A stretch of DNA of 64,000 nucleotides from Thermosipho sp. (in: thermotogales). Its GTDB lineage: Bacteria; Thermotogota; Thermotogae; Thermotogales; Fervidobacteriaceae. Positions within the stretch are counted from its first letter, which is position 1. Each line of letters opens with the position of its first letter. Of the stretch, positions 28,558 through 34,698 are shown one piece after another. The position numbers were made by a program, and so were the translations under genes. Below the pieces are notes generated by a model. The model did not search any database. It saw nothing but the letters and a program-made list of their open reading frames with translations, and had not been told where the DNA came from. Location of the stretch: assembly GCA_017656345.1 (NCBI GenBank), contig JACDNZ010000001.1:62001-126000 (forward strand), written 5' to 3'.

Positions 28558-28563
28558 TATAAT
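28558..28563 (+). promoter_or_regulatory. -10 element of the Nqr-like operon promoter
   Basis: Perfect TATAAT ahead of the PAS/GAF gene; a TTACTA 18 bases upstream is a weak -35. The ribosome site AGAGAGGAG follows at 28574-28582. Confidence 0.45.
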
Positions 28564-28589
28564 ATTTTTGCATAGAGAGGAGTGATATT

Positions 28590-29420
28590 ATTTTCGAAAA
28601 ATTATTGTATAAATTGTCGGATATAGTTGTTTTATATTGGAATGATAAAGTTGAAATCTTGCATTCAAACTATAAAAAGACTGAAGCAGAAATCATTTTT
28701 AAAATATTTTTAAGTAGCAATAAAATGAGGTTAATAAATGAAACAGGAAATGATTATTTTGAGTTGGAGTACAAAGATAAGTACTTTAAAATTGATATGG
28801 TGGAAATTAATAAGGGGTATAAGCTTTTTGCTTTTCAAGATATTTCTCTAACTAAAGAATATGAAAATTACACACACTTTTTTACTTTTATCAATTATCT
28901 TGTAAAAGCTTTTATTAGAAAGATTGTTAGTGGCAGCTTTAATAAAAAAGATTGGTATTATTTTTTAAAGAAAATAGTAATAGTTTTTGACGAGGTTGAC
29001 TCAGCAAGTTTGATTTTAGAAGATAAAGATGGGTATTTTAGATATATAAGTGTATATAATCATAATTTACAAGGGTTAAAAAGTTTAAGACTTTTTAAGG
29101 AAGATTTTGTACCTGAAAGATTTGAAAAAGTTACTGTTCTGAAATTAGATGAAGTTTTGGACGAATTTCATTTTAATGATAAAAGAAGAGAAGAAATTAC
29201 AAAAGTACTAATTAAATATGGTAATCTACCGCGAATTAAATCTTTGATGTCTATTCCAATTTTTAAAAATAATAAATGTGTTGGTTTTATTGTTTTAGAT
29301 AATTGGGATAGAGAAGATGCATTTGATAATAAATTTATGAAAAAATTCGCAAAGACTATTTCACAAATTATTTCTAATCTTTTTAGTTTCACTGCTATTT
29401 ATGAAGAAAGTTTAAAATAG
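28590..29420 (+). CDS. PAS/GAF-like sensor protein with no output domain
   Basis: About 276 residues, no membrane segments. Residues about 8-95 look PAS-like (DIVVLYWNDKVEI..., ending FAFQDISLTKEYENY). The C-terminal half looks GAF-like, ending SLMSIPIFKNNKCVGFIVLDN near residue 240. There is no DNA-binding, kinase or cyclase output. Start choice: the only in-frame TTG (28605) lies 22 bases past the ribosome site AGAGAGGAG, so the ATT at 28590, 7 bases from GGAG, is the best start. It begins the operon that continues with five Nqr-like genes, in the position nqrA would hold, but it has no resemblance to NqrA. Domain calls are moderate. Confidence 0.6.
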   Translation: MFEKLLYKLSDIVVLYWNDKVEILHSNYKKTEAEIIFKIFLSSNKMRLINETGNDYFELEYKDKYFKIDMVEINKGYKLFAFQDISLTKEYENYTHFFTFINYLVKAFIRKIVSGSFNKKDWYYFLKKIVIVFDEVDSASLILEDKDGYFRYISVYNHNLQGLKSLRLFKEDFVPERFEKVTVLKLDEVLDEFHFNDKRREEITKVLIKYGNLPRIKSLMSIPIFKNNKCVGFIVLDNWDREDAFDNKFMKKFAKTISQIISNLFSFTAIYEESLK

Positions 29421-29435
29421 CTGTGGGGTGATTGA

Positions 29436-30338
29436 ATGAATTTTTTCCAGAAGCAGCCAATGATGAGAAGAGTTTTATATGCATTGACTCCAATTTATGT
29501 TTATTCATTATTTTTGTTTGGTATCAGAATAATTCTTTTAAGTATTGTTATTTTTATTTCAGGAATTTTAACCGAATATATTATGGAGAAAAGAAGAAAT
29601 AAAAAAGTTTCAGAAGCGGTTTTAGTTACCTGTATGATTTACACTTTGTCACTTCCTCCTGAGGTTCCGTGGTGGATAGCTTCAATTGGCATAATTTTTG
29701 GAGTTTTATTTGGTAAAGAAGTATATGGAGGCTTTGGTAGGAATGTTTTCAATCCCGCAATAACTGGTCGATTATTTATTTATATAACATTTCCAACTTA
29801 TATGACTTCCGGATGGATATTTCCTCATTTCCCATACCTAAATTTAGATACAACCACATCTGCAACGCCATTAGCAATATTACGTGAAGGAAATTTAAAT
29901 TTAATAAGTTTAAAAAGTTTGTTTTTTGGTATTAGATCTGGTTCGTTTGGTGAAACCGCCGTATTTTTAATTACTTTATCAGCTATTTACTTGATAGTTA
30001 CGAAAACTGCTAGTTGGAGAATAATGTTGTCAACATTTACTTCTGCATTTTTCCTAACTTTTTTGTTAGATATTTTTAATTTTTCCTCTTCACTTCCAAC
30101 ACTTCCTGCAATACTTTCGGGTAGTTTGATTTTTGTGTCAGTATTTATTGCTACTGATCCAATAACAGCCCCCAAGAATGCTAAAATGCATTTTGTTTAT
30201 GGAATAATAATTGGGATTTCAACAGTAGTTATTAGAACTTTTTCATTGTTTTCTGAAGGAACGAGCTTTGCTATTCTATTAGGAAATACTTTTGCTCCCT
30301 TTTTGGATGAATTGTCAAAGAAGAGGGTGAATAAATGA
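29436..30338 (+). CDS. NqrB/RnfD-like membrane subunit
   Basis: 300 residues, mostly membrane helices. Carries the family signature GGFGRNVFNPAITGRLF near residue 100 and the FMN-attachment region as DTTTSATPLAIL near 138-149, where Thr144 corresponds to the flavin-binding Thr (the usual Gly of SGAT is Ser). It lacks the ~100-residue N-terminal extension of NqrB and is close to RnfD length. ATG at 29436 follows GGGGTGATTGA. Part of a B-C-D-E-F operon; stop and next start overlap (ATGA). Builds the ion-conducting core with the C, D and E subunits. Confidence 0.9.
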   Translation: MNFFQKQPMMRRVLYALTPIYVYSLFLFGIRIILLSIVIFISGILTEYIMEKRRNKKVSEAVLVTCMIYTLSLPPEVPWWIASIGIIFGVLFGKEVYGGFGRNVFNPAITGRLFIYITFPTYMTSGWIFPHFPYLNLDTTTSATPLAILREGNLNLISLKSLFFGIRSGSFGETAVFLITLSAIYLIVTKTASWRIMLSTFTSAFFLTFLLDIFNFSSSLPTLPAILSGSLIFVSVFIATDPITAPKNAKMHFVYGIIIGISTVVIRTFSLFSEGTSFAILLGNTFAPFLDELSKKRVNK

Positions 30339-30940
30339 ATAAAGAGAGTAAATTATATGTTGTATTGTTTACTTTCATTATCTCATTTATATTTATTTTT
30401 GTTTTGTCTTTAATTAATGCCTATACAATTGAGAAAATAGAACTAAATCGTGAATTTTCCAAAGTTAAGGCTATTTTAAGTTCAGCTGGTATTCAGTTTT
30501 TTGATAAAAAAGATGCTCTCGAAAAATTTAATAACCTGTTTATTAAAAAAAATATTAATGGCGTAGATTTTTATATTGTTGATAGAGAAGGGAAGGAAAT
30601 ATTTGTGTATGTATTTTCCGGTAACGGTTTGTGGGGATTAATAGAAGGAGCAATTGCAACAAATAAAACAGTGGATCAAATAATTGGAATAGAAATAATT
30701 GCTCAGAATGAAACACCAGGATTGGGTGGAAGGATTGAGGAAGAATGGTTTAAAGAACAATTCAAAAATGAAAAACTTAGTGGAAGTTTAAAATTAATTT
30801 ATACAGGAAAGCAGGGTGATGATGATAAAACAAATTCAGCAGTTGATGCTATTACAGGTGCAACTCTGACTTCAAAATTTTTTGTAAAAATAATTAATGA
30901 CTCAATTGAAATAATGAGAAGTGCTTTGAGGAGTGAATAA
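30335..30940 (+). CDS. NqrC/RnfG-like FMN-binding subunit
   Basis: 201 residues with one N-terminal membrane helix (about 8-28) and an extracytoplasmic FMN-binding domain. GNGLWGLIEG near residue 97 and ETPGLGGRI near 126 match the NqrC rather than the RnfG pattern. The covalent FMN site is TGATLT with Thr177. ATG at 30335 overlaps the upstream stop and follows GAGGGTGA. A flavin transferase (ApbE) would be needed to attach FMN; none is in the window. Confidence 0.9.
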   Translation: MNKESKLYVVLFTFIISFIFIFVLSLINAYTIEKIELNREFSKVKAILSSAGIQFFDKKDALEKFNNLFIKKNINGVDFYIVDREGKEIFVYVFSGNGLWGLIEGAIATNKTVDQIIGIEIIAQNETPGLGGRIEEEWFKEQFKNEKLSGSLKLIYTGKQGDDDKTNSAVDAITGATLTSKFFVKIINDSIEIMRSALRSE

Positions 30941-30941
30941 T

Positions 30942-31544
30942 ATGAATAGATACAAAGAAGTTTTAATTAAGAACATTTGGGTTGAAAATCCAGTTTTTGT
31001 TTTGGTTTTGGGAATATGTTCAACATTGGCTGTCACAAATAATTTAAAAAATACTTTAATAATGACGGTTGGAGTAACTCTGGTAATAGCTTTTTCAAAC
31101 TTTACTATTTCAATTTTGAAAAGTTTGATTCCAGGAAAAGTGAGAATGATGATACAAGTATTAGTTATTTCTTTTTATGTAATTATTGTTGATATTTTTT
31201 TAAAAGCATTTGTTTCTGATGTAAGTAAAGCATTGGGACCTTATGTTGGTTTGATAATTACTAACTGTATAATAATGGGACGAGCTGAGGCTTTTGCACA
31301 AGCAAATAATGCTTTAATTTCTTTTTGGGATGGTTTAACTTCTGGCTTAGGGTACATGTATGTGCTAATTATTGTAGCATTTTTTAGAGAATTATTAGGA
31401 TTTGGAACCGTTTTTGGGTTTCGAGTGCTACCGGATAATTTTGTAAATTGGACAATAATGGTTATGCCCCCTAGCGCATTTTTTATGCTTGCAATTTTTA
31501 TTTGGATAGCAAAAAGTTTCAAGAAAAAGGAGGAATCAAAATGA
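30942..31544 (+). CDS. NqrD/RnfE-like membrane subunit
   Basis: 200 residues, six predicted helices. Family features: NPVFVLVLGICSTLAVTN near residue 14, GPYVGLIITNCIIMGRAEAFA near residue 100, and FRELLGFGTVFG near 150. The cysteines in GICSTL and NCIIMG correspond to those that hold an iron centre between the D and E subunits in characterised complexes. ATG at 30942 follows GAGGAGTG. Stop overlaps the next start. Confidence 0.92.
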   Translation: MNRYKEVLIKNIWVENPVFVLVLGICSTLAVTNNLKNTLIMTVGVTLVIAFSNFTISILKSLIPGKVRMMIQVLVISFYVIIVDIFLKAFVSDVSKALGPYVGLIITNCIIMGRAEAFAQANNALISFWDGLTSGLGYMYVLIIVAFFRELLGFGTVFGFRVLPDNFVNWTIMVMPPSAFFMLAIFIWIAKSFKKKEESK

Positions 31545-32134
31545 TTCCTGATTTAAATCCTCTACTTTTATTTTTTGCCTCGGTATTTACAAGCAATATT
31601 TTACTTTCGAATTTTCTTGGAATGTGTTCATTTATATCGATATCGAGGGATTTCAAGTCTTCAAATGGATTAGGTATGGCCGTAACACTTGTTATGACAA
31701 TTACAACAGTTTTAAACTGGATTGTGGAGAAATATATTATTGTTCCTTTTGGATTGGAATATTTAAGGTATATAATCTACATTATTGTTATTGCAGCTAT
31801 AGTACAGATTCTTGAAATGATTATTGATAGAATCTCACCAAATTTATACATTAGCCTTGGAATATTTTTGCCGTTAATTACAGTTAATTGTGCAATATTA
31901 GGTGTTGCGTTATTCATGCAGCTTAGAAATTATTCCTTGATTCAATCAGCATTTTTTGGATTTGGTTCAGGAATAGGTTGGTGGCTTGCTATAGTATTGC
32001 TTGCCGCTATAAGATTGAAGGTAGACAAAGCTCCGGTTCCTGCCCCTTTAAAGGGAGTTGGAATAACGTTGATAACTATTGGAATTATGGCTATGGCATT
32101 TATAGGTTTTGCTGGTATGATAAATGTTCAATAG
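31541..32134 (+). CDS. NqrE/RnfA-like membrane subunit
   Basis: 197 residues, six helices. Features: NILLSNFLGMCSFISIS near residue 23, ISLGIFLPLITVNCAILGVALF near residue 105 (the second Cys for the shared iron centre), and a GIGWWLAIVLLAAIRLK segment near 150. ATG at 31541 follows AAGGAGGA and overlaps the previous stop. Pairs with the NqrD-like subunit in inverted topology, as known for the family. Confidence 0.93.
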   Translation: MIPDLNPLLLFFASVFTSNILLSNFLGMCSFISISRDFKSSNGLGMAVTLVMTITTVLNWIVEKYIIVPFGLEYLRYIIYIIVIAAIVQILEMIIDRISPNLYISLGIFLPLITVNCAILGVALFMQLRNYSLIQSAFFGFGSGIGWWLAIVLLAAIRLKVDKAPVPAPLKGVGITLITIGIMAMAFIGFAGMINVQ

Positions 32135-32144
32135 AGGTGATTGT

Positions 32145-33248
32145 ATGAATTTATTATTAGCACCATTAATTGTTAGTCTAATTAGTTCATTGTTGGCTTC
32201 ATTGATAGTTATTGTTGATTCGATTGTTAATAATTATGGAGAAGTTAATATAAATATTAATAATGGTAAAAAAATCTTGAAAGTAAAAGGTGGATCTCCT
32301 TTACTATTTACGTTAGCTTCTCAAGGAATTTTTGTGCCTTCAGCGTGTGGTGGGAAAGGCAGTTGTGGGGCATGTAAAGTTAAAGTTTTAACTGATGTTG
32401 GTGAATATCTTCCGACAGAACTTCCGTTTATGTCTAAAGATGAAATAAAAGAAAATATTAGGTTAGCGTGTCAAATAAAGGTAAAAAAAGATCTAAATAT
32501 AGTATTACCAGAAAAATTATTTAATGTAAAAAAATACAAAGGTAAAGTAATTTCACTTAAGAATATAACTCATGATATTAAAGAAGTTAAAATACAACTT
32601 TCAGATAAAATATATTTCAAAGCTGGACAGTATATACAGGTAGTTATACCACCGTACGGAAAAATTAAACAATCAACACAAAGAGCATATTCAATTGCAT
32701 CGCCTCCGAGTAAAAATACCGAGATTGAACTTTTGGTAAGATTGGTACCAGATGGTATTGCTACTACTTATATTCATACGATTTTGAATGTTGGTGATGA
32801 ACTTGAAATAATAGGCCCGTTCGGTGATTTTTATTTGCGAGATACAAATGCAGAGATGATTTGTGTTGCGGGTGGTTCGGGTGTGGCGCCTATAAAATCA
32901 ATATTAATTGATATGTTTGAAAAAGGAATTACTGATAGAAATGTATGGTATTTTTTTGGAGCACAAAGTGAAAAAGATTTATTTTATTTAGAATTGTTTA
33001 GAAACTTTGAAATGAAATGGAAGAATTTTAGATTTATACCAGTACTTTCAAAACCACAAGAACCTGATAAATGGGACGGGGAAGTAGGATTAGTAACAGA
33101 AGTAATGGCAAGATATCTTGAAACAATAATTGATAAGAGTTTACCAAAGGAAGGCTATTTGTGTGGAAGTCCTGGAATGATTAATGCATGTGAAAGTTTA
33201 ATGCGAAAATTTGGAATTGATAAAGTATATTATGACAAGTTTGCATAG
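32145..33248 (+). CDS. NqrF-like NADH dehydrogenase subunit (2Fe-2S and FAD)
   Basis: Accepts electrons from NADH. 367 residues: one N-terminal membrane helix (about 5-25), a plant-type 2Fe-2S domain with Cys68, Cys74 and Cys77 (SACGGKGSCGACKVKV) and Cys109, an FAD domain with RAYSIASPP near 188, and an NAD-binding part with GGSGVAPIKSIL near 250 and YLCGSPGMI near 347. This is the full NqrF layout and is not found in Rnf complexes, where RnfB and RnfC take that role. ATG at 32145 follows GAGGTGATTGT. Last recognisable Nqr gene of the operon. Confidence 0.93.
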   Translation: MNLLLAPLIVSLISSLLASLIVIVDSIVNNYGEVNININNGKKILKVKGGSPLLFTLASQGIFVPSACGGKGSCGACKVKVLTDVGEYLPTELPFMSKDEIKENIRLACQIKVKKDLNIVLPEKLFNVKKYKGKVISLKNITHDIKEVKIQLSDKIYFKAGQYIQVVIPPYGKIKQSTQRAYSIASPPSKNTEIELLVRLVPDGIATTYIHTILNVGDELEIIGPFGDFYLRDTNAEMICVAGGSGVAPIKSILIDMFEKGITDRNVWYFFGAQSEKDLFYLELFRNFEMKWKNFRFIPVLSKPQEPDKWDGEVGLVTEVMARYLETIIDKSLPKEGYLCGSPGMINACESLMRKFGIDKVYYDKFA

Positions 33249-33260
33249 GGAGTTGATAAA

Positions 33261-33713
33261 ATGAAAATGACACCAGAAATGATTAGAGCCCAAGAAAATA
33301 TGAAACCGGGAGTTATAACAGCAGAAGGATTTTTGGGGCATGATGATAGAAATATAATTGATATTATTATTGCTGATGAAATTGAAATGGAAAAACTGGG
33401 GTTGCATTTTTCAGAAGTAGCAGAAAGAATGAAAGAAATATTAAAATTTGGCGAAAAAGGGCTTGGCGAATTAGTGTCATATGAACATTTTTTAATAAAA
33501 GTGGATGAAGCCCGTGGGTTTTTGCCATGTCCTTTTCAAGATGGAGTATATAGAAAAAAAGTTGTATATGTAAAAAACAATGCAAATAATGAAAATCTGA
33601 TGTTTAGTGTTCTTTCGATTCACTTGATTGAAAAGCATCATTTTTTACAGGGGAAAGGTTCAAAGTTTCGTTTAGAACCTTTTAAAATAAAGAAAGTCTT
33701 ATTTGAGAAATAA
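33261..33713 (+). CDS. unknown conserved-looking protein at the end of the Nqr-like operon
   Basis: 150 residues, soluble, no recognised domain. Visible features: an N-terminal stretch PGVITAEGFLGHDDRNIIDII, a predicted helical middle, FLPCPFQDGVY near residue 90 with the only Cys, and a basic C-terminus. ATG at 33261 follows GGGAGTTGAT, 12 bases after the NqrF stop, so it is in the operon. It does not resemble NqrA, NqrM or ApbE. A redox or assembly role is possible only by context. Confidence 0.7.
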   Translation: MKMTPEMIRAQENMKPGVITAEGFLGHDDRNIIDIIIADEIEMEKLGLHFSEVAERMKEILKFGEKGLGELVSYEHFLIKVDEARGFLPCPFQDGVYRKKVVYVKNNANNENLMFSVLSIHLIEKHHFLQGKGSKFRLEPFKIKKVLFEK

Positions 33714-34048: not shown

Positions 34049-34065
34049 AAATAGGAGTGATTAAA

Positions 34066-34698
34066 ATAAGAAAAATTAAAATTTTACTTGAAGAAATAAA
34101 CACGATTTATGATGAAGCAAAGGAATTGGTTGAAGCTCGCTGGAAAGAATTTGAAAACCTTGGAAAAAATGGAACAGAAGAAGATTTATTTAGCGAGCTC
34201 TCTTTTTGTGTTTTAACTGCAAATTGGTCAGCTAAAAGTGGAATTAAAGCTCAAAAAGAAATTGGAGATGGTTTTTTAAGATATACATTGGAAGAATTGG
34301 AAGTTGCCTTAAGAAGAGTTGGACATAGGTTTCCAAAAGCACGTTCGAAATATATTTTTAAGAATAGATGGATTTACGGGAAATTGAAGGAAATAATTTT
34401 GTTGGATGTTAATGAAGCAAGAGAATATTTAGTTAAAAATGTTATGGGAATTGGATGGAAAGAATCATCACATTTTTTAAGAAACGTAGGGAAATGTGAT
34501 GTTGCAATTTTAGATAAGCACGTTTTAAGAATTTTATACAAATTTGATTTAATCGATGAAATTCCACAAACATTGCGCAAAACTTCATATCTGGAAATTG
34601 AAAAAATTTTTAAAGAAGTTTCAAAAGCTTTTGGTGAATGCCCTGGAAAATTTGATTTGTATATTTGGTATTACCTGAAAAATGTTGTTGAAAAATGA
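34066..34698 (+). CDS. ogg: 8-oxoguanine N-glycosylase/DNA lyase (Ogg2/AGOG-like)
   Basis: Excises 8-oxoguanine and cleaves the strand. About 210 residues, matching the archaeal/thermotogal Ogg family: EEDLFSELSFCVLTANWSA, GHRFPKARSKYIF, then the helix-hairpin-helix GPD core NVMGIGWKESSHFLRNVG with the catalytic Lys and VAILDKHVLRIL with the catalytic Asp. The start is unusual: AGGAG at 34053-34057 points to the ATA at 34066 (8 bases) or ATT at 34060 (2 bases); the GTG at 34057 overlaps the ribosome site itself. The family start lies at about this point. Followed by a DUF364 gene. Confidence 0.9.
   Translation: MRKIKILLEEINTIYDEAKELVEARWKEFENLGKNGTEEDLFSELSFCVLTANWSAKSGIKAQKEIGDGFLRYTLEELEVALRRVGHRFPKARSKYIFKNRWIYGKLKEIILLDVNEAREYLVKNVMGIGWKESSHFLRNVGKCDVAILDKHVLRILYKFDLIDEIPQTLRKTSYLEIEKIFKEVSKAFGECPGKFDLYIWYYLKNVVEK

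Follow-up and report, generated by a model that had tools for sequence, protein, structure and literature searches.

A conserved AUU codon as the probable start of a PAS-GAF-like sensor gene in Thermosipho

At which codon does translation begin when a gene has a strong Shine-Dalgarno (SD) site and an ATT, instead of an ATG, GTG or TTG, stands at the expected distance behind it? The question is raised by a gene for a sensor-like protein in a stretch of 64,000 nucleotides of Thermosipho DNA (the window). The features that bear on it are:

28558 to 28563, + strand: TATAAT, a likely -10 element of the promoter, 26 nt ahead of codon 1 (from orthologue comparison)
28560 to 28562, + strand: TAA stop, in frame with the ATT and closing the frame ahead of it (read from the sequence)
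28574 to 28582, + strand: SD site AGAGAGGAG, duplex energy -9.6 kcal/mol for the codon at 28590
28587 to 28589, + strand: ATT in frame immediately before the proposed start (ATT in 4/8 orthologues, TTT in 3, AAT in 1)
28590 to 28592, + strand: proposed AUU start codon (AT[T/C] in 8/8 orthologues)
28605 to 28607, + strand: TTG, first canonical in-frame codon, unsupported as a start (without SD; Leu in 8/8 orthologues, TTG in 2/8)
28590 to 29420, + strand: gene for a PAS-GAF-like sensor protein, 276 codons plus TAG (weak Pfam GAF match, AlphaFold2 model)

A conserved AT[T/C] codon behind the Shine-Dalgarno site

The initial annotation had singled out the ATT at 28590 as a rare start codon, seven bases behind the SD site at 28574-28582 and with the first in-frame TTG 22 bases from that site. 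These positions are right to the base, and there is indeed no nearer start, since not one ATG, GTG or TTG lies from the TAA at 28560-28562 to 28605. Further in-frame canonical codons follow at 28614, 28659 and 28725. The second ATT, at 28587, had been passed over, although it stands directly ahead of 28590; of the two, only 28590 is conserved.

We calculated SD duplex energies for each codon around the site. They were -7.2 kcal/mol for ATT 28587, -9.6 for ATT 28590 and -11.1 for TTC 28593, compared with -0.1 for TTG 28605 and +0.8 for TTG 28614. The energy maximum thus falls on TTC 28593 and not on ATT 28590, a point that counts against the explanation we prefer. Ungapped alignment to AAGGAGGTGAT places ATT 28590 at a spacing of 6 nt, ATT 28587 at 3 nt and TTG 28605 at 21 nt. 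Among 87 ATG genes of the same contig, which were picked for a good SD and serve as the spacing reference, spacings run from 4 to 11 and 7 is the commonest; a near-cognate codon therefore stands at the proper SD distance at 28590.

Orthologues were sought in the window's genome and those of 60 relatives; 44 of these 61 gave matches, mostly to the GAF part only. A profile search matched 19 of the 20 family genomes at E <= 1e-10. Full-length matches were found in eight of these 20, namely in all four genomes of the window's genus (g1) and in all four examined of genus g5; in genera g2 and g3 the match was confined to the GAF part, and in the single g4 genome the profile search gave no match to the sensor. 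The set compared below therefore consists of G000 (the window's genome), G001, G002 and G003 from g1 and G014, G007, G010 and G012 from g5. The gene is open in 7/8 genomes, with 53-56% identity within g1. In G012 (G012:C1:456010-456802) it is split between two frames, by pseudogene formation or an assembly error, and that copy counts for less because of the break.

The initial annotation had proposed looking at this position in orthologues for a normal start. In all eight, the codon that aligns with 28590 behind the SD site is ATT (G000, G002, G007, G010 and G012) or ATC (G001, G003 and G014), and no ATG, GTG or TTG stands at a usable SD distance in any of them. Nor did a clear downstream start appear, which had been named as grounds for giving up the ATT: the first downstream canonical codon is number 6 in G000, 41 in G001, 24 in G002, 5 in G003, 6 in G014, 5 in G007, 10 in G010 and 5 in G012. 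The SD energy at the AT[T/C] codon was -9.6 kcal/mol in G000, -10.8 in G001, -16.5 in G002, -11.3 in G003 and -15.5 in G007, and canonical codons over the first half of the reading frame reached at best -1.9, -2.9, -3.3, -5.2 (at codon 112) and -0.4, respectively; near the N-terminus the best canonical codon had a positive energy in G001 and G002. A canonical start further upstream was considered and rejected, as the in-frame candidates in G001, G002, G014, G007 and G010 overlap or precede the SD site and are not shared; G000, G003 and G012 have no upstream in-frame canonical codon. A well-placed canonical start is thus lacking both upstream and close downstream. The weak point is codon 5 or 6, far from the SD site, which is TTG or ATG in 5/8 genomes (G000, G003, G014, G007 and G012), so that a minor second start there is possible.

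All eight sequences align in a single register from codon 1, with Leu at codons 6 and 9, Asp at codon 11 and Ile at codon 12. This alignment bears on the reading in which TTG 28605 is the start, used either without an SD or by ribosomes sliding from the upstream SD site. These genomes do use TTG as a regular start codon, as in 26 of the 154 SD-supported starts counted in the G000 stretch, and G014 likewise has TTG at codon 6. Against this, the codon has an SD energy of -0.1 at a spacing of 21 nt, its position is occupied by CTT, CTT and CTG in G001, G002 and G003 (and by TTA in G007, G010 and G012), and the first downstream canonical codon of G001 is number 41 and that of G002 number 24. Moreover, codons 3-5, ahead of the TTG, keep Glu-Lys-Leu within the genus. 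Codon 6 encodes Leu in 8/8 genomes; what is kept is the leucine and not the start codon, so that TTG 28605 is, by alignment, an internal leucine codon, and we consider initiation at it quite unlikely. Codons 2-5 taken alone carry a modest sign of coding constraint: all six g1 pairs show third-position differences only (five pairs differ at all), yet the three pairs involving G003 contain a Phe/Leu change within these codons, and second-position differences occur in the pairs G007/G012 and G010/G014.

The tandem arrangement allows a further reading, in which ATT 28587 is the start or both ATTs are used. G001, G010 and G014 also have ATT at the place of 28587, and similar tandems are seen in infC and ahead of an nfeD-like gene (see below). 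The place is TTT or AAT in G002, G003, G007 and G012, however, and the spacing of 3 against a mode of 7 and the energy of -7.2 against -9.6 also speak for 28590; we regard a start at 28587 as very unlikely. That the gene is silent or decaying and its start codon unconstrained, as the split copy in G012 might suggest, is most improbable in view of seven open copies, the identity within the genus and the retention of the -10-like hexamer, the SD site and AT[T/C]. The ATT at 28590 as the start is thus well supported by comparison, through the anatomy of the site, its conservation, the missing well-placed canonical start and the shared register.

Leader, product and gene neighbourhood

TATAAT is found 22-26 nt ahead of codon 1 in 6/8 orthologues, and the remaining two have TAAAAT at 31-32 nt. 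Between the -10-like hexamer and codon 1 lie 26 nt in G000 and G014, 22 nt in G001, G002 and G003, 25 nt in G010, 32 nt in G007 and 31 nt in G012. As these distances are not all multiples of three apart, the leader gains and loses bases regardless of frame. A consensus promoter scan that also required a -35 element returned 11 sites, against 9.3 in shuffled sequences, and TATAAT 28558 was not among them. From the comparison we infer that the mRNA probably starts a few bases past TATAAT 28558-28563, which would give a short leader of about 20 nt.

The product looks like a PAS-GAF sensor in its predicted fold. The Pfam GAF match (E=8.7e-4, 20.3 bits) is below the curated cut-off of 22.4, and at E up to 1 GAF matches were obtained for 5/8 orthologues. 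An AlphaFold2 model, built from 3 sequences and of moderate quality (pLDDT 70.5), had PAS-GAF structures as its top PDB matches in Foldseek (best E=7.5e-7), with PAS followed by GAF. The predicted fold order is that of the PAS-GAF bidomains of phytochrome photosensory modules, from which the protein differs by an identity of only 7-13% and a query TM of 0.34-0.48 (among the 50 Foldseek matches listed) and by the lack of any chromophore evidence. No output domain was recognised in the sensor protein.

The gene had been described as the first of an Nqr-like operon, which is true of the window genome, where it is followed by:

29436 to 33248, + strand: nqrB/rnfD-, nqrC-, nqrD-, nqrE- and nqrF-like genes

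The description does not extend to the relatives, since other genes follow in 7/8 genomes; sensor and nqr genes are adjacent in 1/8, and the association with Nqr/Rnf is not conserved. The closest nqrB (69-71% identity) lies elsewhere in the genome in G002, G007, G010, G012 and G014, and no matching nqrB was found in G001 and G003, which have only a 37% match. Downstream of the sensor gene we found a PPC-domain gene and then an amylase-like gene in G001, an amylase-like gene in G002 and G003, and a gene on the other strand in G014, G007, G010 and G012. Upstream, an argF-like gene is the direct neighbour in G010 and G014, HAD and nitroreductase genes intervene in g1, and a HAD-like gene on the other strand is present in G007 and G012. 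The names argF-like and amylase-like, and HAD and nitroreductase outside the window, come from reading sequences by eye, and the window's HAD and nitroreductase genes from a Pfam search. In G003 (L093:9531-11097) an nqrF-like gene and a gene similar to window positions 33261-33713 were seen by eye near the sensor gene, and part of the nqr operon was probably lost there. In the window, 33261-33713 is a 150-residue ORF after nqrF, for which no Pfam match was obtained at E up to 0.001.

Frequency of candidate near-cognate starts in Thermosipho and its relatives

An SD site followed by ATT in one genome could be chance, and the case draws its weight from the eight orthologues together with the rarity of such sites in a survey. 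We surveyed 740 kb from five genomes (G000, G001, G002, G003 and G007) with 668 ORFs of at least 100 codons, of which 592 had a reciprocal best hit. In 540/592 ORFs the N-terminal region contains a canonical start whose SD energy is at least as good as -5, which speaks against the idea that ATT starts would be seen everywhere in AT-rich DNA. An SD-supported ATT, ATC, ATA or CTG without a comparable canonical start was found in 9/592, comprising the sensor gene and an ogg-like gene in 4/4 g1 genomes each and one further ORF in G001 (G001_190). The sensor gene of G007 also qualifies as having an SD-supported near-cognate start.

A control rule accepted sites with an SD of -9 or better, at most 30 codons from the opening of the frame and lacking an SD-supported canonical codon nearby. 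It picked out 26 sites in nine Thermosipho-clade sets (1275 ORFs, including G006 of g4), and 19 of the 26 sites have ATT, ATC, ATA or CTG. Of the 38 codons at these sites, 20 were near-cognate where codon usage predicts 3.9, and the control codons GTT, GTC, GTA and CTT occurred once against 3.2 expected; these counts are not independent, because orthologous sites were counted once per genome. In the control sets G011, G028, G033 and G056 (474 ORFs), which are unmatched in base composition (G028 has a GC content of 0.50 against 0.28-0.34 in the clade sets), 4 of 19 sites had a near-cognate codon, that is, 4 of 22 codons against 2.1 expected. The rules varied between surveys, with SD thresholds from -5 to -9 and differing ranges for competing canonical codons. 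Two of the 26 clade sites deserve separate mention: G006 128473 resembles a transposase with frameshifting, and G001b 200234 is doubtful. An initial pattern scan of the genome contigs had given 31 matches, none of which was confirmed.

The ogg-like gene is the second candidate within the window:

34066 to 34698, + strand: ogg-like glycosylase gene (PF22175), near-cognate start candidate ATA 34066, SD -9.3

Its ATA stands behind GGAGTGAT, and the sole nearby canonical codon, an in-frame GTG at 34057, overlaps the SD site (+1.9). The codon at this place is ATA in G000 and G002 and ATT in G001 and G003, with an SD-overlapping in-frame GTG in all of these except G001; in the sister genus it is GTG in G014 and ATG in G010.

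Further stretches yielded nine candidate ORFs, and four of these (pth, SPOR-like, rseP-like and nfeD-like) were traced in relatives. The SPOR-like gene, whose SPOR match is weak (17.2 bits, cut-off 21), has a CTG after GAGGAGGG in 9/9 g1, g5 and g4 genomes; in G000 a TAA immediately precedes the CTG, and no canonical codon follows until 22 codons later. SPOR-like matches occur in 15/20 genomes; the three g2/g3 loci that were read lack a CTG at this position, and their divergence is too great for comparison. The nfeD-like gene has ATA followed by ATT or ATC in 8/9 genomes and ACA-ATC in G001; at the same position ATG or GTG stands in 11/11 g2/g3 genomes. For pth the codon at the candidate start is ATA in G000, G001, G002, G003 and G010, ATT in G007 and G012 and TTG in G006; G014 gave no row. 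The rseP-like gene was set aside as ambiguous. It has ATA or ATT at SD distance in all nine g1, g4 and g5 genomes, but an in-frame GTG overlaps the SD site in 9/9, and in 7 of 9 this GTG is the codon at which 10/11 g2/g3 rows show ATG. In G001 the PPC-domain gene directly after the sensor gene (L091:5422-5886, minus strand) has an ATC, where 7/9 other loci have ATG and 2/9 have ATG one codon earlier.

The gene infC encodes IF3, starts with AUU, AUC or AUA and is autoregulated by IF3. In the window genome it reads TGGGAGGGGAAA ATT ATC, and the six readable g1/g5 genes have ATT ATC or ATC ATC. Matches to infC were obtained in 59 genomes; 30 loci were retrieved and 23 were readable, the seven unreadable ones including those of G007 and G012.

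That infC, pth and the nfeD-like, ogg-like and SPOR-like genes lack a well-placed canonical start suggests that Thermosipho-type bacteria are unusually rich in near-cognate starts. We lean slightly towards a wider view, that AUU, AUC, AUA and CUG starts are ordinary in these bacteria, conserved between species and genera, account for perhaps 1-2% of genes and form a low-expression class tuned by IF3 and the SD, misannotated by gene callers restricted to ATG, GTG and TTG. The sensor gene, infC, pth, the ogg-like and nfeD-like genes and the CUG-started SPOR-like gene would be its members. An altered initiator tRNA behind such relaxed starts was considered and discarded; there is no sign of one, because the stem-loop GGGCTCATAACCC is present in 18/20 family genomes (none in G004 and G018).

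Proposed initiation and comparison with known systems

On the evidence above, AUU 28590 very probably serves as the start codon from which the sensor gene is translated, held by the SD site and with an output that would be low and probably restrained by IF3. The site AGAGAGGAG would hold the 30S subunit and put the AUU into the P site. Initiator tRNA would match two of the three AUU bases and IF3 would destabilise the mismatch, from which we infer a low production rate, set by SD strength and IF3 level. The protein would begin fMet-Phe-Glu-Lys. In this scheme the SD would make up for inefficient initiation at AUU and IF3 would probably keep it in check; by analogy, it is plausible that the AUU reduces how much of the sensor is made from an mRNA with a good SD.

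Few bacterial genes outside infC have been shown to use near-cognate starts. Our search of the literature on non-canonical starts in bacteria, Thermosipho and Thermotogae, covering titles and abstract openings of open-licence papers, found no report. The sensor gene probably has such a start, conserved across two genera, and its genomes contain other candidates, one of them a CTG kept in 9/9 genomes of three genera. Interest is raised by the apparent frequency of near-cognate starts in the lineage, CTG among them; in excerpts of one source CUG accounts for 0.024% of bacterial initiation codons (PMC11497404). The candidates form a tractable group in which to study how start-codon stringency in a thermophile is set jointly by SD strength, initiator tRNA and IF3, and the N-termini of such genes will be wrong or missing where only ATG, GTG and TTG are allowed.

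One close parallel is infC, which shares with the sensor gene an AUU/AUC start behind an SD site. According to excerpts of PMC5472188, IF3 destabilises 30S complexes on codons other than ATG, GTG and TTG, and infC is autoregulated in this way. The product of infC is IF3 and that of the sensor gene a PAS-GAF-like sensor, so a direct autogenous loop is not expected for the latter. The same excerpts describe sigR of Streptomyces, which has a GTC start and is repressed by IF3 (PMC5472188). Its regulatory role, its strong SD and the conservation of its non-canonical start recall the sensor gene, from which it differs in having GTC instead of ATT/ATC and in encoding a sigma factor with a coupled antisigma gene (PMC5472188). 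In Staphylococcus aureus, as excerpts of PMC13009471 report, conserved AUU (cvfC1) and AUA (ccpN) starts are accompanied by extended SD motifs, and AUU and AUA reporters reach about 10% of AUG in poor medium, ccpN up to 30% in rich medium. The conserved non-canonical start and extended SD are features shared with the sensor gene, as is the position of cvfC1, a possible regulator, first in its operon (PMC13009471). These genes belong to another phylum and encode unrelated proteins, and their starts are supported by ribosome profiling and reporters, whereas that of the sensor gene is supported by comparison (PMC13009471). The ATT start of the sensor gene is thus of a known kind, that of infC, sigR with its GTC, cvfC1 with its AUU and ccpN with its AUA.
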